64,000 nt of DNA from Cloacibacillus evryensis DSM 19522 (GTDB lineage: Bacteria > Synergistota > Synergistia > Synergistales > Synergistaceae), in the NCBI RefSeq assembly GCF_000585335.1, contig NZ_KK073872.1, positions 2,657,283 to 2,721,282 on the forward strand, given 5' to 3'. Each line of letters begins with the position of its first letter. Within the stretch, counting starts at the first letter, position 1. Shown here piece after piece: positions 49,120 to 63,356 of the stretch. Both the position numbers and the translations under genes were made by a program. The notes below the pieces were generated by a model, which was not told where the DNA came from, ran no database searches, and saw only the letters and a program-made list of their open reading frames with translations.

Positions 49120-49990
49120 TTATTCAATAAAGAGACTTCGATATTGCATCGGAGCCTTTTTCAATTTTATCTGTATCCTGTCGTTATTATAATACCCTAT
49201 ATATTCGTCTATAGCATCTTTGGCCTCCTCGTAGTTCTCCCATTTTACTCGGTTGACGAGTTCTGATTTAATGTGACTAAAGAAGTTTCTGCACAGGCAT
49301 TATCCAAACAATTTCCTTTCCTTGACATCGAGACCTTGAGTCCGTATCTTTGTGTCAGGTTGAAATATGCATGGCTTGTATATTGAAACCCCTGGTCGCT
49401 GTGGAGGATTGGTCCATCAGCGACCACCTTATTATTATTTTCAAATGCTTTCTTCAATGTATCGGTTACTAACTTAATATTATTATTACGACTGATTTGA
49501 TATCCCTGTATGGAATTATCAAAGAGATCTTTTATCATGGAGAGGAATATATTACCCTTTTTGTTCGTATATATGTGATATCAGTAACCAGTTTCTGGTT
49601 TGGTCTGTCGGAACGAAATTCTCTGTTCAGGATATTCTCATAGCTGTGGATATTTTCTGACATCACTTTAAACTTTTTCTTTTTTCTTATTTCCGCTTGA
49701 AGTCCCGCTTTTTTCATAACACGCCTTACCCTCTTATTGTTTACATGAATGCCAATGAAGTTGTTGAGCCACAGAGTCATTCGCCTGTACCCATAAGTGT
49801 TTTTGTTGATATTCTGTCCCGTTCTTATTGCTTCTATGAGAGGACCGTCTTTATCTTCCATTCCACGCCGCTTTAGCCAACTGTAGTATGTCGAACGAGA
49901 TACGGACAAAAATCTACACATTACACAGACAGAATGTTTTGTTGAAAATTCAAAAATGATTCTGTATTTAATATTTCTTTCTATCACCAC
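49120..49990 (-). pseudogene. IS150-like OrfB transposase, two frameshifts
   Basis: DDE transposase of an IS3-family element in three frames. The first part (to 49535) has the HTH-21-like region and DDE Asp in VTDITYI; the second (49538-49245) has HSDQGFQYTS and NCLDNACAE; the third (to 49120) continues as FFSHIKSELV...QYRSLFIE. One base is missing in an A run near 49548 and another near 49270 just after GAA. Expression would start by -1 slippage on A7 in orfA. Confidence 0.85.
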
Positions 49991-50427
49991 CTTTGCAGCT
50001 CTAAGGCTTTTTTTAATACATCGACCTGCATTTCCAGCTCTTTAATCTTTTCTATGCTATTTGTAACTTCCAATTTCTTATCTGGACAGTCTTGTTTTGA
50101 ACTAGAAATATCCCCTTGTTCGATAAATTCCTTACACCATCGTCTTAAAAGAGAGGGACTTGAAATGTTAAAAGATGAGGTAACATCTACCATAGTACGT
50201 CCCTCTTCTAAATGAGCCGAAACAGCTTCAAGTTTTACAGCCTTGCTGTAGGTTCTTTTTTTCCTTGTATCATCCAGTAAGTCCTTCTGTCCGCTCTTAT
50301 ATAAAGATATCCATGTTTTAACAGAATCATGACTAACACCAAGTTCTTCAGCAATCCGCCTTCGTGGAATTCCCTGTTTGTGCATCTCAATTGCTTTTAT
50401 TCTTTCTTCTGTTTTACGTTTACGCAT
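49984..50427 (-). CDS. IS150-like OrfA (transposase subunit)
   Basis: 147 residues, two helix-turn-helix units (RIAEELGVSHDSVKTWI; VTSSFNISSPSLLRRW) and a C-terminal leucine-zipper-like coil. TTAAAAAAAG near 50010 is a good -1 slippage site for making OrfAB. Intact although its partner is not. Confidence 0.85.
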   Translation of the reverse strand: MRKRKTEERIKAIEMHKQGIPRRRIAEELGVSHDSVKTWISLYKSGQKDLLDDTRKKRTYSKAVKLEAVSAHLEEGRTMVDVTSSFNISSPSLLRRWCKEFIEQGDISSSKQDCPDKKLEVTNSIEKIKELEMQVDVLKKALELQRW

Positions 50428-50581: not shown

Positions 50582-50696
50582 TAAATCCCCATTTATCTTC
50601 CCTCCCAATCGCAATTTATCTTTTACCCGCCCGAAGGAAATCAACAATAGCAGTTTTGCATAATAACAAAAAAATCGGCGCGAAGAAGTGCCGTAG

Positions 50697-50857
50697 GCTA
50701 AATAAGCCGGTCTCTGAGTACCGGAGCCGTATTCTCCATACGGCGATTGCAAGGCAATGTTCCCCGCCATTGGCGGGGAACTCTTTTCAAATTATCCACA
50801 TTGCCGCGGCATGCGGGTGCGTTTGCCGCAGGACACTCAGGGGCCGGCTTATGACGC
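50697..50857 (+). repeat. Hairpin element C with an 84-base insert
   Basis: Ends GCTAAATAA and TTATGACGC, core ACCGGAGCCGTAT...ATACGGCG and AGGAC, arms CCGG.CTCTGAGT and ACTCAG.G.CCGG. Removing 50746-50829 leaves exactly 77 bases, as in copy B. The insert holds a perfect GTTCCCCGCC/GGCGGGGAAC hairpin (50759-50781) followed by TCTTTTC. Confidence 0.75.
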
Positions 50858-50932
50858 ATACGGTGCTTATTCGCGCCGATTTTTATAAACGCCGATTTAC
50901 CCCCTGTAGATGCGGCCTGCCAGGGGTACTAT

Positions 50933-51358
50933 CTATAGAGACTTCGCCTGCTTCAGGCAGTACAGCTTATATTGTATGAAATTTATGACCTCGGCCTGCC
51001 CGGCCTTATCAAGATAGCGAAAAAGATTCAACAACATCTCTTCTTCAACACCAACACCGCCCGGCACAACTCCAGAAGCGCCCACCTCCCGCAAACACGC
51101 GGAGGCGGCGCCGGCGTCGGCACATTGACGATAATCAAGCACTGGATTATCTGTTTCGCCTAACAAATAGCCGACTCCTGTCCCAAGGGCCATGGCTATC
51201 TTTGTTAAATTATCCGTATCCGGCGTCACTTTATCATTTTCCCATTGAGAAAGACTCACTCGGTTTGTTCCCAATCTATAGGCCAGCTCCTCCTGGCTCA
51301 AGCGCTGCATCTTTCTCATCTCACGTATCCTGTTTCCCAGTGACAACGGCAGCACCAC
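50933..51358 (-). CDS. XRE-family transcriptional regulator
   Basis: 141 residues: N-terminal Cro/CI helix-turn-helix (about 10-65; RLSQEELAYRLGTNRVSLSQWEN), a Gly/Ala-rich linker and a short helical C-terminal domain (LLNLFRYLDKAGQAEVINFI) that may dimerise. GTG at 51358 is given, but a TTG at 51346 has AAGGTGG at better spacing. Divergent from the helicase gene and probably self-regulating. Confidence 0.85.
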   Translation of the reverse strand: MVLPLSLGNRIREMRKMQRLSQEELAYRLGTNRVSLSQWENDKVTPDTDNLTKIAMALGTGVGYLLGETDNPVLDYRQCADAGAASACLREVGASGVVPGGVGVEEEMLLNLFRYLDKAGQAEVINFIQYKLYCLKQAKSL

Positions 51359-51372
51359 CTTTACAGGCCTAC

Positions 51373-51462
51373 ATTATAAATAGGGGCAGAAATGGTTTAT
51401 AACCGTTAAAATTACATTTTTTGTAAATTAGAATTGACATAAAAGAACTATGACGATAAGAT
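51373..51462. promoter_or_regulatory. Divergent promoters and operator-like dyads, XRE and helicase
   Basis: Minus strand: TTATAA (51402-51397), 18 bases, TATAAT (51378-51373) for the regulator. Plus strand: TTGACA (51434-51439), 17 bases, TAAGAT (51457-51462) for the helicase. Between them are the palindrome GGTTTATAACC (51394-51404, over the regulator's -35 box) and TTACA-5-TGTAA (51412-51426), plausible regulator sites. Confidence 0.65.
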
Positions 51463-51610
51463 AACTTCAATAATATCTGGGGTATAACGGGCCGCAAGTA
51501 TTGAGACATAGAAAATCATGAATAGACGTTCTAAAAAACCACAGCCAGGCAAAAATCAAGCCGTCTATGCTGTTGTTTTGTTGTCTGAACATGGGGAAAG
51601 GAGGCGCGAT

Positions 51611-54205
51611 ATGATATCGCTGTTTGCCCACAACCAAATAGCCTATAGCTCCGCCCTCTCCATGCTCAACGACACCGGCAAGGCCGCCGTCGTCCACCCC
51701 ACCGGCACCGGCAAGTCTTTCATCGGCTTCAAGCTCGCGGAGGATCATCCGGATGCCTCTATCTGCTGGCTTTCTCCCTCGGAGTATATTTTCAGGACAC
51801 AGATGGAGAATCTAAGGGCGACTGGCGCGGAGGTCCCTGATAATATTCTCTTCTTCACCTACGCGAAGCTGATGCTTATGCCGGAGGAGGAGCTTTCCGC
51901 TATTCGTCCCTCCTATATCATCCTCGACGAGTTCCACCGCTGCGGCGCGCAGATGTGGGGCGGCGGCGTGGAACGGCTGCTTGCCATGTATCCGCAAGCC
52001 CCCGTCCTCGGTCTCTCGGCTACCAACATCCGCTACCTCGACAACCAGCGTGACATGGCCGACGAACTATTCGACGGCAATATAGCCTCCGAAATGACCT
52101 TGGGCGAAGCGATCGTGCGCGGCATTTTGGCCCCGCCGACCTATGTCGTCTCGATCTACTCCTGCGAAAAAGATCTGGTAAAATACCAGTCCCGCATCAA
52201 AGGCGCGAAAACCAAAGCGGTGCGCGACGAAGCCCAAAAACGTCTCGACGCCTTGAGACGCGCGCTGGAAAAAGCGGAAGGGCTGGACATCGTCTTCGAA
52301 AAGCACATGACCGATAGGCATGGCAAATACCTGCTCTTCTGTTCAAGCGTCGAGCATCTGAACGAAATAGCGGCCCATGTGCCGCAGTGGTTCGCCAAAG
52401 CCGCCGCCGGCGCAAGCGGTGACGCCGGCCTTACTGACGGCGCGAACATACATCTATATAAAGCCTACGCCGACGACCCCGAGACCAGCAAAGCCTTCGC
52501 CGCCTTCAAGACGGACGACAGCGACGCTTTAAAGCTTCTCTTGTGCATAGACATGCTCAACGAGGGCGTCCACATCGACGACATAGCCGGTGTTATCCTC
52601 TTCCGCCCCACAGTCTCCCCCATCGTCTACAAACAGCAGATCGGCAGAGCCTTATCCGCCGGGAACAACAAAAAGACCGTCATCATCGACGTCGTCAACA
52701 ATATAGAGAACCTCTACAGCGTCTCCGCCATCCAGGAGGAGATGCGTTCGATCATCGACTGCTACAGAGCCGCGGGAGACGAAGATAAGATCGTAAACGA
52801 CTCCTTCACCATCATCGACGAGGTGAAGGACAGCCGCCGCCTCTTCAACGAACTTGAAGAGAGCCTCTCCGCCTCATGGGAGACGATGTTCGGATATGCA
52901 AGGGCCTATTACCTGAAACAGGGAAACCTCTACATACCCAAACGCTATAAGACAAAAGAGGGATACTCCCTCGGCTCCTGGCTCAACACACAGAGACTCG
53001 TCTATGCCGGAAAGATACCGGGCGTACTCGGCAAAGAGCGGACAGCCAAACTTGAGAGCATCGGCATGAGCTGGAAAAACCGCTACGACCTCTCGTGGGA
53101 GAGATACTACAAAGCGCTCTGCGCATACAAATACCAGAACGGCAACATCGACGTCCAGGCAAACTACGTGACGCCGGAGGGCCTTGACCTCGGCAAATGG
53201 ATATGCAATCTGCGCCAGGCGAAAAGCGGCGGCCGCAGAGGTTACTACCTCACCGATGAACGTATCGCGGCGCTGGGCAAGCTCGGCATGATCTGGGACA
53301 AACTCGACTACCTATGGGAGCAAAACTACCTCGCCTGCGCCGAATACTACATGAGGCATCACGACCTCAACATACCGGCGAACCACGCCTCCGAAAACGG
53401 CCTGCGCATCGGGGCCTGGCTGAGAAGAATGCGCAAAATAAGAAGCGGCAGGCTCAACGGCTCCGCGCCTCTGACTAAGGAACAGATAGCTCGGCTGGAC
53501 GCGATACATATGAACTGGGTCGACACCCGCACGCGGCAATGGGAATACGGCTATCAACAGGCCGCCGCCCACCATAAAGAATTCGGCACTCTTGACGTGG
53601 CCGCCGGATACGTCAACAAAAACGGCTTCCCGCTCGGCGAGTGGCTGCGAAACCACACTGACCTCAATACAAAAACGGGACGCACATCGATAAAAGTCAC
53701 GCCGGAACGCCGCGCGAAACTCGACAAACTCGGTTTCAAATGGACCGTCGAAGACTCCTGGCAGAAGCGCATCGCTGCCTGCGAAGAATACCTCAAAGGA
53801 CACGGCGACCTCGACGTCCCCGCCAACTACGTTACCGATGGCATCTGGCTCGGCAAATGGCTCTACGAATGCCGGCGCGCCTACCGCGGCGAAACAGATG
53901 GCAAGAGGCTGACCAAAGAACAGATGCGACAGTTGGAAAAACTGGGCATGGACTGGCGCACCGCCTCGGAACGCGCCTGGGCCGAAAGATATGAAACCGC
54001 CGCTCGCCTGTTCAAAACCGGGAGCGACACAAATACCGGACAAGGCGGCAAGACAGAAGAGAGAGCCAAGATCAGCCAATGGATCGCGCGTCAGAGGACT
54101 CTTCACATACAGGGCAAGCTGACACGTGAACAGATAGAGATGTTGAACACGCTGAATGCGGCAAAGACGATGAGGCAAAGAAATTCAGAGAGAGGAACGG
54201 TCTAA
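51611..54205 (+). CDS. SF2 DEAD-type helicase with tandem helicase-associated (HA) repeats
   Basis: 864 residues. N-terminal ATPase core (about 1-440): Walker A HPTGTGKSF, motif II LDEFHRCG, LGLSATN, and QQIGRALS motif VI. The C-terminal half has five clear HA repeats of about 70 residues (pattern W-x-x-x-Y ... GNLDVPANY ... G-x-x-LG-x-WL ... LT-x-EQ-x-x-x-L-x-x-LGM-x-W) and a sixth degenerate one. ATG at 51611 has AAAGGAGG 6 bases ahead; an upstream in-frame ATG at 51518 has none. HA repeats are thought to bind nucleic acid. Cellular role unknown; lies between a regulator and polysaccharide locus 2. Confidence 0.85.
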   Translation: MISLFAHNQIAYSSALSMLNDTGKAAVVHPTGTGKSFIGFKLAEDHPDASICWLSPSEYIFRTQMENLRATGAEVPDNILFFTYAKLMLMPEEELSAIRPSYIILDEFHRCGAQMWGGGVERLLAMYPQAPVLGLSATNIRYLDNQRDMADELFDGNIASEMTLGEAIVRGILAPPTYVVSIYSCEKDLVKYQSRIKGAKTKAVRDEAQKRLDALRRALEKAEGLDIVFEKHMTDRHGKYLLFCSSVEHLNEIAAHVPQWFAKAAAGASGDAGLTDGANIHLYKAYADDPETSKAFAAFKTDDSDALKLLLCIDMLNEGVHIDDIAGVILFRPTVSPIVYKQQIGRALSAGNNKKTVIIDVVNNIENLYSVSAIQEEMRSIIDCYRAAGDEDKIVNDSFTIIDEVKDSRRLFNELEESLSASWETMFGYARAYYLKQGNLYIPKRYKTKEGYSLGSWLNTQRLVYAGKIPGVLGKERTAKLESIGMSWKNRYDLSWERYYKALCAYKYQNGNIDVQANYVTPEGLDLGKWICNLRQAKSGGRRGYYLTDERIAALGKLGMIWDKLDYLWEQNYLACAEYYMRHHDLNIPANHASENGLRIGAWLRRMRKIRSGRLNGSAPLTKEQIARLDAIHMNWVDTRTRQWEYGYQQAAAHHKEFGTLDVAAGYVNKNGFPLGEWLRNHTDLNTKTGRTSIKVTPERRAKLDKLGFKWTVEDSWQKRIAACEEYLKGHGDLDVPANYVTDGIWLGKWLYECRRAYRGETDGKRLTKEQMRQLEKLGMDWRTASERAWAERYETAARLFKTGSDTNTGQGGKTEERAKISQWIARQRTLHIQGKLTREQIEMLNTLNAAKTMRQRNSERGTV

Positions 54206-54341: not shown

Positions 54342-54965
54342 ATGTATAAAAACTGCTTTAAAAGATTGATAGATATATCTATATCCTTCATCGGTCTGGC
54401 TTTGCTTGCCATACCGATGTTGGCAGTTGCCGCAATCGTAAAGGCAGACTCCAAAGGTGCTGTACTCTTTTGGCAGAAACGTGTCGGCATACATAAAACA
54501 ACATTCATGATGCCAAAGTTCAGAACAATGTACGTTGATACTCCCGCTAATATGCCGACCCATATGCTAAATGATCCCGATAAATGGATAACTGGATGCG
54601 GAAAATTCTTGCGCAAAACGAGCCTTGATGAATTACCGCAGATTTGGTGCATTTTTACTGGGCAAATGTCCGTCATTGGCCCGCGCCCCGCGCTCTGGAA
54701 CCAATACGACCTCATCGCCGAACGCGACAAATACGGAGCCAACGACATCCGTCCCGGCCTCACCGGCTGGGCGCAGATAAACGGCCGCGACGAACTGCCG
54801 ATAGAGGTAAAGGCCAGATACGACGGCGAATACGTAAAGAAAATGAGCTTCCTCTTCGACTGCAAATGCTTCTTCGGCACCATCGCCTGCGTGCTGAAAA
54901 AAGAGGGCGTTGTCGAGGGCGGCACGGGAACAATTGCGCAAAAGGAATTACATCGGCATGGATAA
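54342..54965 (+). CDS. Initiating sugar-1-phosphate transferase (undecaprenyl-phosphate)
   Basis: 207 residues of the bacterial sugar transferase (PglC/WbgY-like) family: N-terminal membrane helix (ISISFIGLALLAIPMLAVAA), KFRTM, RKTSLDELPQIW with the catalytic Asp-Glu pair, MSVIGPRPA, RPGLTGWAQINGRD. It loads the first sugar phosphate onto undecaprenyl phosphate and opens locus 2. The sugar is likely an N-acetylated deoxyhexose given the downstream dehydratase. GAGG precedes the ATG. Confidence 0.92.
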   Translation: MYKNCFKRLIDISISFIGLALLAIPMLAVAAIVKADSKGAVLFWQKRVGIHKTTFMMPKFRTMYVDTPANMPTHMLNDPDKWITGCGKFLRKTSLDELPQIWCIFTGQMSVIGPRPALWNQYDLIAERDKYGANDIRPGLTGWAQINGRDELPIEVKARYDGEYVKKMSFLFDCKCFFGTIACVLKKEGVVEGGTGTIAQKELHRHG

Positions 54966-55260
54966 ATTTTTAGCTATAACGGGTGCTTCTGGAAAATCAA
55001 GAAAAAATGAGCAGCTTGGTAAAAAGCCAGTATTTTTTAACGTGCCGTTTCCCATTGCGTATTTATTTGTGTGGATACTCTTCTTTGTGTCTTTTACCCA
55101 ACAAGATTACCGAGAAAAGGTACAGCGTCTTTGTGAACCACGCATTTTTTCTCATGAAGCGGCTACTAAAGATCTTAACTATTCCCCTTGCTCTTTCGGA
55201 GAAGGTATTACGGACGAAATCAAAAAATACAAAATTTGGCTTTTAAAGAAAAAGAGCTGA
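54958..55260 (+). pseudogene. NAD-dependent epimerase remnant with internal deletion
   Basis: The frame starts MDKFLAITGASGKS, the nucleotide-binding opening of an SDR epimerase, and jumps almost at once to a sequence like the C-terminus of such enzymes (FFNVPFPIAYLFVWILFFVSF; EPRIFSHEAATKDLNYSP; EGITDEIKKY). About 200 middle residues are missing with the frame kept. Its ATG overlaps the sugar transferase stop. No activity expected. Confidence 0.7.
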
Positions 55261-55271
55261 TTGGTAAAGTC

Positions 55272-56504
55272 ATGAAGATAATGTATTTAACGGCAGAAGG
55301 TTTTGATACTCCCAATCCTAATAATCAACTAGTAATGACAATGCTGGACGATTTCCTTTCATATGGCATTGGCGTGTATCTTGTGCAAAGCCATAAAACC
55401 GGCACATACGATGACATTCCCAATTGTTTAAAAGATAAAGCAGGCCTGACCTATGACATCATTCAGCGCCCTGTAATCAACAAGACAAATTTCATAAAAC
55501 GGTATCTGGACGAATTAAAGTATTTATGGCGTGCAAAAAAAAGATGGGAAATAGGCGGAAGAGATGTGGATTTAATTCTACTACAATCCAACCCAACTAG
55601 TGTTTTTTATATTTTTCTGTTAAAGCATATATTGAAAAAACCGATTGTATATAGCGTATTTGATATCTTTCCTGGCAGTGCCTACGAAATAGGTGTAGTT
55701 AAGCAGAGATGGGTTTATCAAATATTTTATGAAATCCAAAAATTAGCTTACCGTTGGAGCAGCATCATTGTTGTCCCAGGGGATGATATGAAGGACACTT
55801 TAACTTCAATAGGTGTGCCAGAATACAAAATTTGTGTGATTCCTAATTGGTATGACGATCGTTCTGTGTCTGAGATAAAAGATGCCGATAATCGATTTTT
55901 TCAGGAGAATAACATCGAGAAAACAGGCCAATTTATTGTTCAATTTGCCGGTACGCTAGGCTATGTGCTTGATTTTCAAACTATCATTGATGTTGCCGAG
56001 TTACTAAAAAACGATTCCGATATTGTTTTTCATATTATTGGGGATGGAAATATGCGGAAGCGTTACTTTGAAAAAATTAAACAAAGTACGTTGACTAACA
56101 TTAAGACATTTCCATGGCAAAGAATAGAAATTATTCAAGACGTATACAGTGGTTGTGATGTTTGCCTAATTCCTCTGAAAAGAGGTGTCATTGAAACCGG
56201 CTTTCCGAGCAAATCCACATTACTTATGGCTTGCCGGCGTGTTGTTATAAGTTCTGTACCAGAAAATACAAAATATTATCAAATGATTAACAATAATAAT
56301 ATTGGGATTGCTGTTCCAATCGGACAACCACAAAAATTAGCTGAAGTCATCAGGTATTTACGAAATCATCCTGAACAGATTACAAAAATTGAAAATAAGG
56401 CACAAGAATACAGCAAAAAATATTTTTCAAGAACATGTAATGTTCCCAAGTTTATCCACCTTTTTGAAGAGCTATGTGCAAGTGAGGTTGAGAAGAATGT
56501 TTGA
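55272..56504 (+). CDS. Glycosyltransferase family 4 (WbuB-like)
   Basis: 410-residue GT-B enzyme. MKIMYLTAEGFDTPNPNNQ start, PIVYSVFDIFPGSAYEIG in the acceptor domain, FAGTLGYVLDFQTIIDVAE at the donor-domain start and GFPSKSTLLMAC in place of the E-x7-E motif. Resembles WbuB-type enzymes that act on FucNAc-linked lipids. ATG 55272 is taken; the frame extends upstream into the remnant. AT-rich. Confidence 0.85.
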   Translation: MKIMYLTAEGFDTPNPNNQLVMTMLDDFLSYGIGVYLVQSHKTGTYDDIPNCLKDKAGLTYDIIQRPVINKTNFIKRYLDELKYLWRAKKRWEIGGRDVDLILLQSNPTSVFYIFLLKHILKKPIVYSVFDIFPGSAYEIGVVKQRWVYQIFYEIQKLAYRWSSIIVVPGDDMKDTLTSIGVPEYKICVIPNWYDDRSVSEIKDADNRFFQENNIEKTGQFIVQFAGTLGYVLDFQTIIDVAELLKNDSDIVFHIIGDGNMRKRYFEKIKQSTLTNIKTFPWQRIEIIQDVYSGCDVCLIPLKRGVIETGFPSKSTLLMACRRVVISSVPENTKYYQMINNNNIGIAVPIGQPQKLAEVIRYLRNHPEQITKIENKAQEYSKKYFSRTCNVPKFIHLFEELCASEVEKNV

Positions 56505-57513
56505 AGGAAAGGTACTGCTAATAACAGGGGGTACAGGCTCTTTTGGTCATGCCGTTTTGGATCGCTTTTTGTCCTCCAATATTGCAGAAATAAGGATTTT
56601 TTCACGCGACGAAAAAAAGCAAGACGATATGCGCCGCTGCTATCAAAACGATAAAATTAAGTATTACATTGGTGATGTTCGCGATCCCTATAGCCTAGAC
56701 AGTGCGGTGCTGGGTGTTGACTATATTTTTCATGCGGCTGCGTTAAAACAGGTTCCATCGTGCGAGTTTTTTCCAATTGAAGCTGTAAAAACAAATGTGC
56801 TTGGAACAGAAAATGTGCTCAACAACGCTATTGCACATGGCGTAAAAAAAGTTGTGTGTTTGTCTACAGATAAGGCAGCATATCCTGTCAACGCGATGGG
56901 GATATCAAAGGCAATGATGGAAAAAACGTTTGTGGCAAAATCACGCACCATTAATCCCGAAGCTACATCCATTTGCGGCACCAGATACGGCAACGTAATG
57001 TGCTCTCGTGGCAGTGTTATTCCACTTTTCATCAATCAAATCAAATGTGGCCAAGCGTTGACTGTAACGGACCCACACATGACACGCTACATAATGTCAC
57101 TGAAAGAGGCCGTTGACTTGGTGGTTTATGCTTTTTTACATGCACGATCAGGCGATATCATGATTCAAAAAGCACCTTCATGTTATATAGGTGATTTAGC
57201 TCTCGCTATCAGGTTGTTATTTAATGCTGACAATGAGATAGTGACTATTGGCACTCGACATGGCGAAAAAAGATATGAGGTGCTAATGACAAAAGAGGAA
57301 GCCGCAAAAGCTGAAGATTTAGGTTCTTTCTTTCGTATTCCCTCTGATAATCGCAATCTAAATTATGAACATATGGAATCCGGCTCACATGCAATCACAG
57401 AGGCGGATGAATATAACTCACAGAATACAGTTATTTTAACTATTGAGCAGATTGCGGAAAAGCTTAAGGAGATTCCCGAAGTCCAAAAAGAGCTCATAAC
57501 GTGGAGTAAATAA
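56497..57513 (+). CDS. UDP-GlcNAc 4,6-dehydratase/epimerase, CapE/WbjB type
   Basis: 338-residue short-chain dehydrogenase: ITGGTGSFGHAVL NAD loop, FHAAALKQVPSCE, CLSTDKAAYPVNAMGISK with the catalytic set (MGISK replaces YxxxK as in inverting dehydratases), and RYGNVMCSRGSVIP. Makes 4-keto-6-deoxy precursors of FucNAc/QuiNAc-type sugars. ATG at 56497 has GAGGTTGAG ahead and overlaps the GT4 by 8 bases. Confidence 0.9.
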   Translation: MFEGKVLLITGGTGSFGHAVLDRFLSSNIAEIRIFSRDEKKQDDMRRCYQNDKIKYYIGDVRDPYSLDSAVLGVDYIFHAAALKQVPSCEFFPIEAVKTNVLGTENVLNNAIAHGVKKVVCLSTDKAAYPVNAMGISKAMMEKTFVAKSRTINPEATSICGTRYGNVMCSRGSVIPLFINQIKCGQALTVTDPHMTRYIMSLKEAVDLVVYAFLHARSGDIMIQKAPSCYIGDLALAIRLLFNADNEIVTIGTRHGEKRYEVLMTKEEAAKAEDLGSFFRIPSDNRNLNYEHMESGSHAITEADEYNSQNTVILTIEQIAEKLKEIPEVQKELITWSK

Positions 57514-57515
57514 TA

Positions 57516-58376
57516 ATGAAGGTTTTGGTATTAGGATGTAATGGAATGGCAGGGCATGTAGTATCGCTACATCTGCAGGATAACGGGTTTAATGTAACAG
57601 GTTTGGCGCGCTCCCAAAAAATTGGTGTTCCTACAATTATTTGTGATGTGACTGATTTTGCCAAACTTCAAACCATCATTGGTGACGGAAATTATGATGT
57701 AGTTATCAATTGTGTAGGTATTCTTAATCATTATGCACAGGAACATAAGGGAAATGCCGTGCTGATTAACGCGTATCTACCACATTATCTGGCAGAACTG
57801 ACAGCAGATACGAAAACACAGGTCATACAGATAAGCACAGACTGTGTTTTTTCTGGACAGCGAGGAAAATATAAAGAAACAGATATTTGTGACGGACAGA
57901 CATTTTACGACAGGAGCAAAGCTTTAGGAGAAATCATTGACAATAAAAATTTGACCATTCGCACTTCGATTATAGGACCTGACTTGAATCCTGATGGAAT
58001 TGGATTGCTCAACTGGTTCATGCAGCAGGATGGGCCGGTTTATGGCTATACAAAAGCAATTTGGACGGGGCAAACTACATTACAATTGGCAAAAACGATA
58101 GAACAGGCAATAATTCAAAAACTAGCGGGGCTACACCATTTAGTCCCGGAAATGCAAATTTCAAAATATAATTTGCTACTCCTTTGCAACAAATATATTC
58201 GTAAAAACTCTATAAAAATTTTGCCAGATGAAAATATCCTCATAGATAAGTCACTTGTACGAGGAGAAGACTCTTTCAAGTACTCTATCCCCGGTTATGA
58301 GACAATGATTCCTGAGCTTGTTAGTTGGATTAGTAAACATAGAAGTCTATATCCACATTATGAGATCAAAGAGTAA
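57516..58376 (+). CDS. SDR reductase, RmlD/WbjC-like
   Basis: 286 residues: LGCNGMAGHVVSLHL NAD(P) loop, INCVGILNHY, ISTDCVFSG and YDRSKALGE catalytic motifs typical of RmlD-like sugar reductases. Two bases after the 4,6-dehydratase, it most likely reduces that enzyme's keto product. A second enzyme for FucNAc (2-epimerase) is not seen unless beyond the window. Confidence 0.87.
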   Translation: MKVLVLGCNGMAGHVVSLHLQDNGFNVTGLARSQKIGVPTIICDVTDFAKLQTIIGDGNYDVVINCVGILNHYAQEHKGNAVLINAYLPHYLAELTADTKTQVIQISTDCVFSGQRGKYKETDICDGQTFYDRSKALGEIIDNKNLTIRTSIIGPDLNPDGIGLLNWFMQQDGPVYGYTKAIWTGQTTLQLAKTIEQAIIQKLAGLHHLVPEMQISKYNLLLLCNKYIRKNSIKILPDENILIDKSLVRGEDSFKYSIPGYETMIPELVSWISKHRSLYPHYEIKE

Positions 58377-58382
58377 CTTATT

Positions 58383-59447
58383 ATGAAAAATATATGCTTT
58401 ATCACATTAGGAAATCTCTATTTATGCCCCTATTTGGAATTTTACCTCCGTCAAATCAACGGACCTTATACTGTCATATTTTGGGATCGCGAACAAAGGA
58501 ATGAAACAGCAAATGGACAAGCTATCTATAAGAGATTTTCTTTTTCATGTACGACAAATAATAATTTTAGAAAAATTATGGGATATATCAAATTTCGGAA
58601 ATACATAAAGCGGACACTCCATAAAAATGTGTTTGATGTAATTGTCTTACTTCAAACACAAGCGGCATTGTTGGTTTATGATCTATTACTTAAGTATTAT
58701 AAGGGGAAATATATTATTGACATTCGGGATTATAGTTATGAAAAATATAATTTTATATATAATATGGAAGCAACGCTAATAAAAAACTCTCTGCATACCA
58801 TAATATCATCCAATGGTTACCGAGCTTTTTTACCGCCGCATGACTATTTAGTTATACATAACCTAAGGTATTTACCCAAGGTACAGACAAAACATATTAG
58901 TTTGAGGGAGAAGAGGCAAAACGTTCTCACCATTGCTTTTATTGGCTTTGTTAATTATCAGAAACAACATCAGAAATTGATCTTATCACTGAAAGATGAT
59001 TCCAGGTTTGAGTTACGTTTTATCGGTACGCGGGCAAAAGAATTGGAGGCATTTTGCCAGGACCATGCAGTAAAGAACGTAACATTGATAGATACCTTTG
59101 ACTCAAGTAAGATTGTCGATTTATATCATGGCGTTGATTTTGTGAACAATTTATACGGCAATCACACGCCAGTTCTCGATTACGCGCTTTCAAATAAATT
59201 ATATTTTGCCGCAGAATTACGGATACCAATACTTGTTTGTCCAGACACGTACATGTCTGATGTCGTTGAAGATTATGGGATTGGTCTAACTGTCGATATT
59301 AATTCATACAATCTCGGTAACACTTTGTACGACTATTATTGGAAAATTAACTGGGAAGTTTTTGACCGTAATTGCTCTATGTTTCTCGATAAAGCATATG
59401 TTGAGAATAATAATTTAGAAAAACTAATAAAGGAAACTTTTTTGTAA
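58383..59447 (+). CDS. Glycosyltransferase (GT-B fold, unassigned family)
   Basis: 354 residues: MKNICFITLGNLYLCPYLEF start, LTIAFIGFVNYQKQHQKLI opening a donor domain, and VLDYALSNKLYFAAELRIPIL near the nucleotide site. Looks like capsule-type GT-B transferases without a clear GT4 E-x7-E motif. Strongly AT-rich. Followed by a 74-base gap. Confidence 0.7.
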   Translation: MKNICFITLGNLYLCPYLEFYLRQINGPYTVIFWDREQRNETANGQAIYKRFSFSCTTNNNFRKIMGYIKFRKYIKRTLHKNVFDVIVLLQTQAALLVYDLLLKYYKGKYIIDIRDYSYEKYNFIYNMEATLIKNSLHTIISSNGYRAFLPPHDYLVIHNLRYLPKVQTKHISLREKRQNVLTIAFIGFVNYQKQHQKLILSLKDDSRFELRFIGTRAKELEAFCQDHAVKNVTLIDTFDSSKIVDLYHGVDFVNNLYGNHTPVLDYALSNKLYFAAELRIPILVCPDTYMSDVVEDYGIGLTVDINSYNLGNTLYDYYWKINWEVFDRNCSMFLDKAYVENNNLEKLIKETFL

Positions 59448-59521: not shown

Positions 59522-60631
59522 ATGTTACAAATTTTACATACTATACCTGCACTTGACGGCGGTGGCGCTGACCGTATCTTATACGATTATTGTATCAGAA
59601 TGTCAGACGTCATTCATTTTGATTTTATTGTTCATACCGAAAACCAAGGCATCCTTGAACAAGAACTGCAAAATATAGGATGCCGGATATTTCATATTCA
59701 GCCTCTTCACACAAATGCTCGCGCATATTGCTCTAATATTAAAAATATTATAAAAAATGGAAAATATGACATTATACATGTTTCACAAGGATATAGAGGA
59801 TTGATAATGATATTTTATGCAAAAAAATATGGAATCAAGGTTCGCATCGCTCATTCCCATATGGCGTATATTCCAGAGTCAATAAAAGAACATGTGGTTA
59901 GAAAAATATCCACGTTTTTCGTAAAACGATACGCAACACATCTATTCGCCTGTGGCAAAGACGCAGCAATTTGGATGTGGGGGAGGGAAGCCTATACTTC
60001 TGGCAAGGTACATATTATGACAAATGCTATAGATACCGAACGCTTTAAATATTCAGAAGAAAAAAGAGACAAAATTCGTGCCGAGCTAAGACTGGAAGAT
60101 AAATTTGTTATCGGCAATGTGGCACGTTTTTCATATCAAAAAAATCATGAGTTCCTGATAAGGGTTTTCGCCGAAGTTAAAAAAATCAGGAAAGATGCTG
60201 TTTTGATGCTTATTGGTAGAGGAGAACTGGAAGCGGACATAAAAAACCAAGTTTCGGTATTAGGGTTAAACGATTCCGTCATTTTTATGGGTGTGCGAAA
60301 CGATGTATCGGAGCTACTGAATACCATGGATGTTTTTGTGTTGCCATCAAGATACGAGGGACTTCCTGTCACACTGATTGAAGTACAGGCAAACGGACTA
60401 CCAGTACTTGTCGCGGATACTGTCACAAAAGAAATATATATCAATAATAATGTCGCTTATTTGCCGCTCAGTATAAACTGTTGGGTTGATGCTATTATAT
60501 GTAGCTCTACAAAGACAAGATTTAATAATGGTTCTGAATTAGTAAAAAATGCAGGCTATGACATAACCCTAGAAAGCCTTGGGCTATTACAGCATTATAA
60601 GGAATTGCATGATGGAACAAATTCACAATAA
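59522..60631 (+). CDS. Glycosyltransferase family 4
   Basis: 369-residue GT-B enzyme: ALDGGGADRILYDY loop, NVARFSYQKNHEFLIR, RYEGLPVTLIEVQANGLPV (E-x7-E motif). AAGGAGAAACT precedes the ATG. Overlaps the next gene. Confidence 0.92.
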   Translation: MLQILHTIPALDGGGADRILYDYCIRMSDVIHFDFIVHTENQGILEQELQNIGCRIFHIQPLHTNARAYCSNIKNIIKNGKYDIIHVSQGYRGLIMIFYAKKYGIKVRIAHSHMAYIPESIKEHVVRKISTFFVKRYATHLFACGKDAAIWMWGREAYTSGKVHIMTNAIDTERFKYSEEKRDKIRAELRLEDKFVIGNVARFSYQKNHEFLIRVFAEVKKIRKDAVLMLIGRGELEADIKNQVSVLGLNDSVIFMGVRNDVSELLNTMDVFVLPSRYEGLPVTLIEVQANGLPVLVADTVTKEIYINNNVAYLPLSINCWVDAIICSSTKTRFNNGSELVKNAGYDITLESLGLLQHYKELHDGTNSQ

Positions 60632-62054
60632 AAAATACTTAGTTACCTGCAAAGCTATTATACTAATATTTTGTTTATTATTAGCTATGGTATCGTTTAC
60701 AGAAACTCTATTTGATGTATCTCAGGTATATCAGGGGATTGTACTTCTTCCCGCCACTTTTGTGTTTGTTACAATCTGTTTAGCACGTTATTTTTCAGAG
60801 TTTCGGCATAATTTTGCCATGGTGGTTATTTATTTTGGATACATGGCCCGCATGGTGATAACACCGTTTTTTTTCTGCCTTGGTGGCTGTCACTCATTTC
60901 TCTTATTTAATTTTTTTGATGACGTCTTGTTTTCCTCATGTATTTTAATATCAGGAGAATTTATCGCATTTGCGATAGTCTGCATGTTGTGGCGTTCATC
61001 AAAAGAAAGAAAAAGGATCTCTTGTGATTCTAAATCCACAATAGTAGATGTTCATATTTTCCGCAGCAGTTCCGTTGTGAAAATTTTGATTCCTCTTGTA
61101 CTCTTCATGGTTACCGCATACTGGTATATTCCAGAACTACAAACAATTTATTGGCCGATATTTGGGGGTAAAATTTCAGGTTTAACATCGATTTTTTATG
61201 ATAACGAGACGCTTGTTCAGCGTGGGGGAATTCAACGTTATATCTATAGTATGTTTAGATTTTTATGGCCTATTGTGAGATTGATGCTTCCATCGTTTCT
61301 GATCGCGCAGGTCTACAAACGAAATGGACACTTTTTATGGGTCGTATTGTCACTGGTTATTCCATGTATTCTTTTAGGTGACGATAATATAGCACCACTT
61401 TTTTGTAGCCTTATTACGCTTTTCGTCATCGCCAGATTATATCCCAAGCAGTTTCGCCGTCTCTTATTTATAGTATTTATTTTAGGGATAATGTTTCTTG
61501 CCGTAGTACTTCCAGAAAAATTTGAAAGCCTGCAAAGATGGCGTGGCGGCTCAGGGGTTGTTGTGGTTGCCCAAATGCTGCAGGCATACTTGCCAGGTTT
61601 TGACAATACAGCGGTAGTAAAGTCTATTCCTCGAGCGGAATTATTGGAGACATTATTTGCTGACCTTTACTATGCAATTCCGTTTAAAAAAACACTATTG
61701 GGGCTGAATGTTGTTGATTTACAGGAACGTTTTACTTCACAGAGTAAAACAGGAGGACAGATACTTCCATTTGGTGCACAGTTAAATTACTATTTACCGA
61801 TGCCACTTACCTGGTTATTGATTGGAATACTTATGATGTTCGCACTAAAGTATTATGATAAGGCAAAAAATACAAATAATTTTTGGCGATTATTTCAATA
61901 TATTTACTTCTCCATGGATACCGCCATATCTTTTTCTATGTATTCATTCTCAATTTATATAAGAAGTTTAGTCAATATTTATGTTCCAATACTTCTTATT
62001 GTCTGGGTGATGCGCGCGGCAAAAAGACGAAAACCATTGAAACACAATCAATAA
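60609..62054 (+). CDS. wzy: Wzy-like O-antigen/capsule polymerase
   Basis: 481-residue membrane protein with about ten segments and a large loop, no long conserved motif, as expected for Wzy polymerases joining repeat units in the periplasm. Identified by topology and by its place before a flippase. ATG 60609 (or the next codon) has AAGGA ahead. Confidence 0.7.
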   Translation: MMEQIHNKKYLVTCKAIILIFCLLLAMVSFTETLFDVSQVYQGIVLLPATFVFVTICLARYFSEFRHNFAMVVIYFGYMARMVITPFFFCLGGCHSFLLFNFFDDVLFSSCILISGEFIAFAIVCMLWRSSKERKRISCDSKSTIVDVHIFRSSSVVKILIPLVLFMVTAYWYIPELQTIYWPIFGGKISGLTSIFYDNETLVQRGGIQRYIYSMFRFLWPIVRLMLPSFLIAQVYKRNGHFLWVVLSLVIPCILLGDDNIAPLFCSLITLFVIARLYPKQFRRLLFIVFILGIMFLAVVLPEKFESLQRWRGGSGVVVVAQMLQAYLPGFDNTAVVKSIPRAELLETLFADLYYAIPFKKTLLGLNVVDLQERFTSQSKTGGQILPFGAQLNYYLPMPLTWLLIGILMMFALKYYDKAKNTNNFWRLFQYIYFSMDTAISFSMYSFSIYIRSLVNIYVPILLIVWVMRAAKRRKPLKHNQ

Positions 62055-62081: not shown

Positions 62082-63356
62082 ATGAAGTTTTTTTTAAGAT
62101 TACAACCATACAATTCTATCGTAATAAAAAACACATCCATGCTCTATCTGTTCAGCATAGCAAGCTTAGTGTTTCCGTTATTGACGCTGCCCTATCTGAC
62201 ACGAGTATTAAGCATCGAATATTACGGCATCAGCGCCTATGTTAAATCCTGCATGGCGTATTTTACTGTGTTCCTTGAGTTCGGCTTCCTGCTGTCGGCA
62301 ACAAGAGACATCGTAAACGCAAACAACGATTGTCAGATGATGTCGCAAATCGTCGGAGCCGTTACAATGGCAAAAGTTCTTCTCTCCGCAGCCGCCCTCT
62401 TTGCGATGCTTGCTATATTTCCATTTCTTCCAATATTGGGCAACAATAAACTATTTACTTTACTGTCCTTCTGCGCAATCGCCATTAACGCTCTAATTCC
62501 TGATTATCTCTTCCGTGGGCTAAACGCCATGGAAGTCATCACCTATCGTTTTATCGTATGTAAGGCAATATCCGTTCTGCTTACATTCGTCCTTGTAAAA
62601 GACGATTCTGATTTCCTTCTGATTCCGCTGCTTGATTTCGGCAGTTCGATACTGGCATTAGCTTTAAGTATAGGATGCATGCACAAAAGAAATATTTCCC
62701 TGCCTCTAGTTTCTATAAAACTTGCCTTATCAACAATGATTAAAAGTTTTACTTATTTTATCTCCGATTTTGCAACGACCGCGTTTAGCGCATTATGTAC
62801 CATCCTTATTGGCCTCTATCTTAATATCACAGATGTAGCGTATTGGAGCCTCAGTATAACGCTGGTCGGTGCGGCGCAATCGCTTTTTAGCCCTATTATG
62901 AACGGCATCTATCCATATATGGTTTCAACGCGAGATTTGTCATTGATAAAAAAGATACTGGCTATTTTCCTGCCAATGATTACTCTTGCATGCCTCATTG
63001 CGTGTTTGTACGCTCCACAGTTGCTGTATTTCGTTAGCGGAGAGAAATACATAGCTGCGGCCCCCATTTTCAGGATGCTTTTACCGTTGGTATTAATTTC
63101 GTTTCCTGGGATGTTGTGTGGTTGGCCTTCACTTGGAGCGATAAACAGAGCAAAAGAAGTATCAATAACTTCTTCCTGTGCGGTTATTTTTCAAATTATA
63201 TCTCTGATTATATTAATAACAAATAATCATTTTAACATTATCAACATAGTAATTGTTCGAACAATGACAGAAACCATACTTTTTATTACACGTTGGTTTT
63301 TCTGTTATCGATATAGAAAAGAATTCACAAACTACGCTAGAAAGGACAATATATAA
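62082..63356 (+). CDS. wzx: Wzx-like oligosaccharide flippase
   Basis: 424 residues, about 12 membrane segments, MATE/MVF-fold polysaccharide transporter: NTSMLYLFSIASLVFPLLTLPYLTRVL and GISAYVKSCMAYF at the N-terminus are typical of RfbX/Wzx. Moves the lipid-linked repeat unit across the inner membrane. Stop overlaps licD start. Confidence 0.9.
   Translation: MKFFLRLQPYNSIVIKNTSMLYLFSIASLVFPLLTLPYLTRVLSIEYYGISAYVKSCMAYFTVFLEFGFLLSATRDIVNANNDCQMMSQIVGAVTMAKVLLSAAALFAMLAIFPFLPILGNNKLFTLLSFCAIAINALIPDYLFRGLNAMEVITYRFIVCKAISVLLTFVLVKDDSDFLLIPLLDFGSSILALALSIGCMHKRNISLPLVSIKLALSTMIKSFTYFISDFATTAFSALCTILIGLYLNITDVAYWSLSITLVGAAQSLFSPIMNGIYPYMVSTRDLSLIKKILAIFLPMITLACLIACLYAPQLLYFVSGEKYIAAAPIFRMLLPLVLISFPGMLCGWPSLGAINRAKEVSITSSCAVIFQIISLIILITNNHFNIINIVIVRTMTETILFITRWFFCYRYRKEFTNYARKDNI

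Follow-up and report, generated by a model that had tools for sequence, protein, structure and literature searches.

HA-repeat SF2 ATPases are promoter-proximal genes of probably phase-variable polysaccharide operons in Synergistota and Clostridia

Across the surveyed gut-type bacteria of Synergistota and Clostridia, an SF2 ATPase with tandem HA repeats is nearly always encoded promoter-proximally in polysaccharide operons that are probably phase-variable, in the place that the antiterminator UpxY holds in Bacteroides. This placement is based on the sugar genes downstream of the ATPase gene, on the repeat pairs and promoters upstream of it, and on a spacer that is reversed at one locus (L045). 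We put at roughly 40% the probability that the ATPase is a dedicated regulator of its own polysaccharide operon with a role in elongation or anti-termination. The reference copy is encoded in a 64,000-nucleotide stretch of the Cloacibacillus evryensis DSM 19522 genome (the whole stretch analyzed, hereafter the window), for which an earlier note made from the sequence alone had offered defense, locus variation or control of the sugar genes as possible roles. Of these, control of the sugar genes has the most support, given the genes found directly downstream of the close homologues. Surveyed homologous loci are labeled L### and genomes G###, with G000 being the window's own genome.

The divergent pair described in the earlier note, an XRE regulator and an 864-residue SF2 ATPase, was recovered at the same place (Table 1). 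Pfam assigns the small ORF to HTH_3 (E 1.5e-13) and finds ResIII, Helicase_C and HA stretches (HA E 1.2e-83) in the ATPase, six of the latter where five to six tandem repeats had been counted. Translation from the first ATG of the open frame (51518) would yield 895 aa; we prefer the start at 51611, because it is directly preceded by a strong ribosome site (AAAGGAGG) and agrees with the start of the relatives' ATPases in an alignment. The promoters had been called well formed and divergent, and this holds for the helicase promoter (10/12), whereas no promoter for the XRE gene passed the scan of the intergenic region, where the only candidate is a -10-like ATTATA (TATAAT on the minus strand), which two relatives share. 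Palindromes had also been placed over the promoters, and one of them sits just before the helicase promoter and is kept together with the helicase -35 in L047 and L054; by itself, however, it is not rare (1.45 matches per window are expected by chance when up to 2 mismatches are allowed). The pair does look like the self-controlled module that had been suggested.

The reported position of the pair between a repeat/IS cluster and a sugar locus was also borne out, as one flank holds transposase fragments and a multi-copy inverted-repeat element and the other a polysaccharide operon. Two transposase fragments (HTH_21 and HTH_Tnp_1; 49538-50427, minus strand) lie beside the XRE gene, and a short element with 50-nt inverted repeats occupies 50655-50900 (repeat 50670-50884), with 72 matches in G000 and 63 in G001. 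Many copies of this element lack its middle part (query 93-175), which is also found alone; thus, one small element may sit inside another. The 50-nt inverted repeat was considered as a possible switch and rejected, since it is part of the multi-copy element. On the other side, the helicase stop is separated from the first sugar gene by 137 bp, in which scans detected neither a promoter nor a terminator match.

Table 1. Coordinates of the regulator, ATPase and sugar genes in the window.
Feature	Position	Strand	Remarks
XRE/HTH_3 regulator, 141 aa, divergent	50933..51358	-	probable repressor
-10-like TATAAT for XRE gene	51373..51378	-	read by eye; failed promoter scan
Operator-like palindrome TTTACA-N5-TGTAAA	51411..51427	no strand	1 mismatch; conserved in L047 and L054
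Helicase promoter TTGACA-17-TAAGAT	51434..51462	+	10/12; -35 conserved in L047 and L054
HA-repeat SF2 ATPase, 864 aa	51611..54205	+	two RecA domains, six HA repeats; ORF open from 51518
Priming sugar transferase (Bac_transf), first sugar gene	54342..54965	+	Pfam
Glycosyltransferase (Glycos_transf_1)	55188..56504	+	Pfam
Polysacc_synt_2 dehydratase/epimerase	56389..57513	+	Pfam
RmlD-type reductase	57516..58376	+	Pfam
ORF in sugar operon	58383..59447	+	no Pfam match
Glycosyltransferase (Glycos_transf_1)	59522..60631	+	Pfam
ORF in sugar operon	60579..62054	+	no Pfam match
Polysacc_synt membrane protein (flippase type)	62082..63356	+	Pfam

Homologous loci were gathered by sequence alone and not by context. 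After two duplicates (L132 and L138) were dropped, 97 distinct loci were retained, comprising 73 close loci (profile score of at least 850 bits; 42 genomes) and 24 far loci that score lower or are truncated. Flanking regions were taken for most, not all, of the places matched in Clostridia genomes and in the family, order and class surveys. The window's own genome carries a second copy (L045) that is 81% identical, and matches were detected in 10 of 60 relatives (E up to 0.001) and in 4 of 149 genomes surveyed across the phylum (E up to 1e-40). When each species was represented by a single genome, the scan yielded 28 loci, mostly from Clostridia. At E up to 1e-60, the survey of G173's family gave matches in 13 of 299 genomes, that of G160's order in 13 of 394 and that of G163's class in 7 of 391; individual genomes among the 20 behind the Clostridia loci have as many as 7.

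A priming sugar transferase or DegT aminotransferase is encoded on the same strand within 4 kb downstream of the helicase in 44 of the 48 close loci that have at least 4 kb of downstream sequence (30 of 34 genomes; the exceptions are L097, L142, L161 and L174), compared with 1 of 42 close loci within 4 kb upstream on either strand. For the far group, the same two families were found downstream in 3 of 11 loci and upstream in none of 17. The first assigned sugar gene, present in 54 of 58 loci, lies at a median of 155 bp from the helicase. Genes were assigned to the sugar and recombinase families by means of purpose-built profiles made from a few seeds, most of which, not all, were checked with Pfam; among 25 chosen downstream genes, Pfam independently assigned 11 to Bac_transf and 9 to DegT. 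The survey of neighbors that the earlier note had proposed thus finds close HA-repeat helicases with a conserved downstream partner rather than scattered without one. Within the window's own genome, an HA helicase precedes two of the three priming sugar transferases; the locus of the third (L183, G000:C1:2882001-2901000) yielded no HA helicase. Two plasmid loci of Ruminococcus albus were also read, and L097 (5385-11967) has two tandem HA helicases on an R. albus plasmid, located after nucleotidyltransferase genes and with no sugar transferase downstream in the stretch read.

On the upstream side, the usual feature is an invertible segment, often with a recombinase. Of 53 close loci, 30 have an inverted-repeat pair scoring at least 16 in the 700 bp before the helicase, compared with 0/51 further upstream, 1/61 downstream and 0/73 inside the gene, and an anchored control at a score of at least 18 gave 31/43 upstream vs. 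0/142 downstream anchors. Larger or more distant pairs are present in 11 further loci, ten of which enclose a tyrosine recombinase gene (the gene is antisense in L126 and L161 and sense in the remaining eight). With L048, whose arms are weaker (score 13), a repeat pair marks an invertible segment in 42 of 53 close loci and 30 of 37 genomes, a count in which the last 12 loci were added by hand; the 11 loci without a pair are the window, L047, L001, L003, L007, L017, L097, L120, L123, L142 and L159. Of 51 close loci, 25 encode a site-specific recombinase in the 1 kb before the helicase, of the serine type in 4 and the tyrosine type in 21; none of 58 has one in the 1 kb after it. The serine type lies directly upstream of the own genome's second copy and of the copies in G001 and G021, and Pfam identified a tyrosine recombinase upstream in each of the four Clostridia loci checked.

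The short segments are rich in promoters: a sigma-70 promoter scoring at least 10/12 is present in 28 of 33, where shuffles predict 5.0. The better promoter points toward the helicase in 7 segments and away from it in 22, with one tie and three in which none was found. Nothing passed the sigma-70 scan in the spacers of L045, L048 and L049, in which TTGACT with TATCAA or TATTAA can be read by eye. The L045 spacer matches those of L048 and L049 in reversed orientation only (scores of 31.0 and 27.0; shuffle maxima of 7.5 and 10.5), and this is evidence of inversion between species. In addition, contig ends fall within 300 bp of the helicase on the upstream side in 19 of 73 close loci and on the downstream side in 4, a hint of the kind expected for a mixed population or repeated sites, with other causes also possible. 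Taken together, the repeat pairs, the promoters between them and the reversed L045 spacer are the arrangement by which we recognize phase-variable loci, i.e., inverted repeats around a promoter ahead of an operon.

A protein encoded next to a switch could also act on the switch itself, and the ATPase might help or bias the recombinase, for instance at palindromic sites, as a feedback of the ON state. The recombination sites are indeed strong palindromes, the ATPase core resembles the DNA-repair ATPase RadD, and a recombinase is close by at the 25 loci counted above. However, the other 26 of the 51 loci have no recombinase within 1 kb upstream, the window and L047 keep an intact ATPase gene without a switch, and the protein would be made in the ON state only. 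We therefore regard action on the DNA switch as unlikely.

The invertible segment was not visible in the first reading because the window copy lacks it. No upstream repeat pair was found in the window or L047 and the recombinase-site pattern is absent from the window; a switch hidden there was rejected on these grounds. Where the switch would be, both copies have a divergent XRE gene (62% identical between the two), and the XRE/helicase intergenic region is also conserved in L054, whose contig stops inside the helicase. An XRE gene was seen beside the helicase at these three loci only, and it is thus not a general partner of the helicase. In a quick ATPase-domain tree, the two XRE copies form one clade (support 92) that adjoins switch-bearing copies of the same and related genera. 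The simplest reading would be that the XRE gene once took the place of the switch; as the tree is quick and its root was set at the midpoint, we only infer the direction of this replacement.

Locus variation, as raised in the earlier note, is partly right in another sense, since the pattern of identity among helicase copies of one genome is suggestive of exchange between them. The DNA of the window copy and L045 is 86-97% identical across four blocks of 40 codons (residue 634 to about 790) and 60-84% identical over the motor; L047 and L048 share 93-95% over residues 41-160; and L050 and L051 are 97-99% identical up to residue 434, at the motor/HA border, where the identity drops sharply to 73%. 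Mosaic identity was seen among the helicase genes of L045, L047, L048 and L050-L052. Faster HA divergence within a genome was considered as a sign of locus-specific recognition and rejected: divergence between same-genome copies is not clearly different from that of between-genome pairs, and it therefore lends no support to such recognition.

The several diverged copies per genome (up to 7 matches) could alternatively silence each other's loci, each ATPase repressing every sugar locus but its own, so that the cell would make a single polysaccharide at any time, as with UpxZ. The position of the gene is analogous to that of upxY-upxZ in Bacteroides, according to the available part of the source (PMC7315117). 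However, 23 of 42 genomes have one close locus only among the surveyed loci, the sampling of which is incomplete, and the targets of a silencer in these genomes would therefore have to be helicase-free loci. Cross-locus silencing thus appears improbable.

The protein belongs to the HA-repeat SF2 helicases (PF03457 with ResIII/Helicase_C), with 275.8 bits for HA (cut-off 28.4) and 38.1 bits for ResIII (cut-off 22.5), and its predicted structure comprises two RecA domains and six three-helix repeats (mean pLDDT 78, pTM 0.43). The ATP-binding and DExH motifs are invariant across 21 aligned members. Motif VI reads QQ[IV]GR[AGC]L followed by S, A, T, C or V in all 70 close sequences in which it is readable, whereas both SauUSI and RadD have R at this end position (GLR in RadD, ALS in the window ATPase); the far members read so far also lack the final arginine. 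This arginine contacts ATP. Thus, the motor may work differently or need a partner, and unwinding is uncertain.

The closest solved fold of the motor is that of RadD (YejH; Foldseek E 3e-9, sequence profile E 6.3e-9), and the best PDB sequence match is the ATP-dependent restriction enzyme SauUSI (profile E 3.7e-22). Both matches are limited to the motor, and the NCBIfam RadD model gives 30.5 bits against a cut-off of 720, so that this model does not call the ATPase a RadD. Comparison of the HA array with solved folds returned nothing significant (best E 1.1), and it has one PDB sequence match (2kta, a putative helicase). Other HA helicases (Aneurinibacillus and Vibrio plasmids; Streptomyces plasmid matches) are related in their motor and partly in their HA repeats, whereas no sugar genes lie beside them in the two records whose neighborhoods were read.

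The ATPase domain also matches PADLOC models for type IV restriction and PbeA, as well as SauUSI itself, as might be expected of a phage-defense gene that is co-regulated with the capsule. However, these matches are partial and confined to the motor, Pfam finds no nuclease domain in the ATPase, and the recurring neighbors are sugar genes, with neither a full-length defense model nor defense partner genes found. A defense island was rejected for these reasons, and the defense role advanced in the earlier note is very unlikely. That the helicase is a passenger riding in polysaccharide islands with no role there, for which the adjoining transposase fragments and repeat element and the patchy presence (13/299, 13/394, 7/391 and 4/149 genomes) might speak, is highly improbable given its one-sided same-strand position in 44 of 48 loci and its invariant motifs.

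We thus favor a dedicated regulator of the polysaccharide operon. In the window, the XRE protein would repress the helicase/sugar operon and itself via the conserved palindrome. Once the promoter fires, the ATPase would be made first and would bind nucleic acid via its HA array, and its SF2 motor would let RNA polymerase traverse the long sugar operon, like UpxY, LoaP or RfaH. Several observations argue for a regulator: a position on the sugar genes' strand, between them and the promoter, that nearly all close homologues share, a promoter region that is, or lies behind, an invertible segment in most of them, the lack of a promoter or terminator match in the window's helicase-sugar gap, and the invariant ATP-binding and DExH motifs. 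An elongation role is suggested by the likeness of place to UpxY and by the lack of a second NusG in the window's own genome. Counting against a regulator, no nucleic-acid target of the HA array emerged, whether RNA or DNA; the final motif VI arginine is missing from all 70 close sequences in which that motif is readable; HA divergence lends no support to locus-specific recognition; 4 of 48 loci have neither sugar family within 4 kb; L140 also has a NusG-like gene; and just 3 of 11 more distant HA helicases have sugar genes beside them.

The single NusG of the window's own genome is a housekeeping one, encoded beside the ribosomal L1 gene; thus, no paralogue of the UpxY/LoaP/RfaH type was found in this genome. 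The helicase itself has no NusG match in Pfam and thereby lacks the NusG domain of those proteins. A NusG-like gene lies between helicase and sugar genes at L140 (7148-7924), the sole case among the loci scanned, and a NusG partner as a general feature was rejected on this single match. Extending the preferred reading, the HA-repeat ATPases could form a new class of operon-specific transcription factor in the polysaccharide loci of Clostridia and Synergistota, an ATP-driven counterpart of UpxY, LoaP and RfaH that is unrelated to NusG, is made first from a switchable promoter and lets the polymerase read the operon; we consider this wider claim rather doubtful.

Invertible promoters of capsule loci are already known, and so are the capsule switch and antiterminators of Bacteroides. 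Such invertible segments go by the name inverton, and RfaH is a further analogue of the antiterminator type. Neither a constant promoter-proximal gene of such operons in Clostridia and Synergistota nor an HA-repeat ATPase in that position was described in the literature searched, mostly outside subscription journals. In gut bacteria, capsule switching affects surface contact and phage sensitivity. Should the ATPase control the operon, a new regulator family could be named, the gene would serve as a genome marker for switchable sugar loci, and the reading of long sugar operons in Clostridia and Synergistota would become testable.

The capsule loci of Bacteroides have the same invertible promoter, promoter-proximal gene and long polysaccharide operon, with several loci per genome; however, their promoter-proximal gene, UpxY, is a NusG paralogue rather than an SF2 ATPase with HA repeats, and the window copy differs further in having an XRE gene and no switch. 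In Bacteroidota, antiterminator genes are enriched beside invertons, according to the available part of a study on invertons (PMC11892184), in the text of which the word "helicase" is absent over that part. The accessible portion of PMC7446863 describes post-initiation control behind a DNA switch in Clostridioides difficile, where Rho ends flg OFF transcripts. LoaP, a NusG paralogue, is tied to long biosynthetic and capsule operons (PMC12691694, PMC13174815; both in part), as the HA ATPase is to sugar operons, although the two have no domain in common and a NusG-like gene accompanies the helicase at one surveyed locus only, L140. For the serine recombinase of the window's own genome, the best model is the Mpi master invertase, below its cut-off (59 vs. 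272 bits). A repeat pair similar to those of the other loci lies, as read by eye, right behind an apparent tRNA-Gly gene in G028 (L053, 7250-7720).
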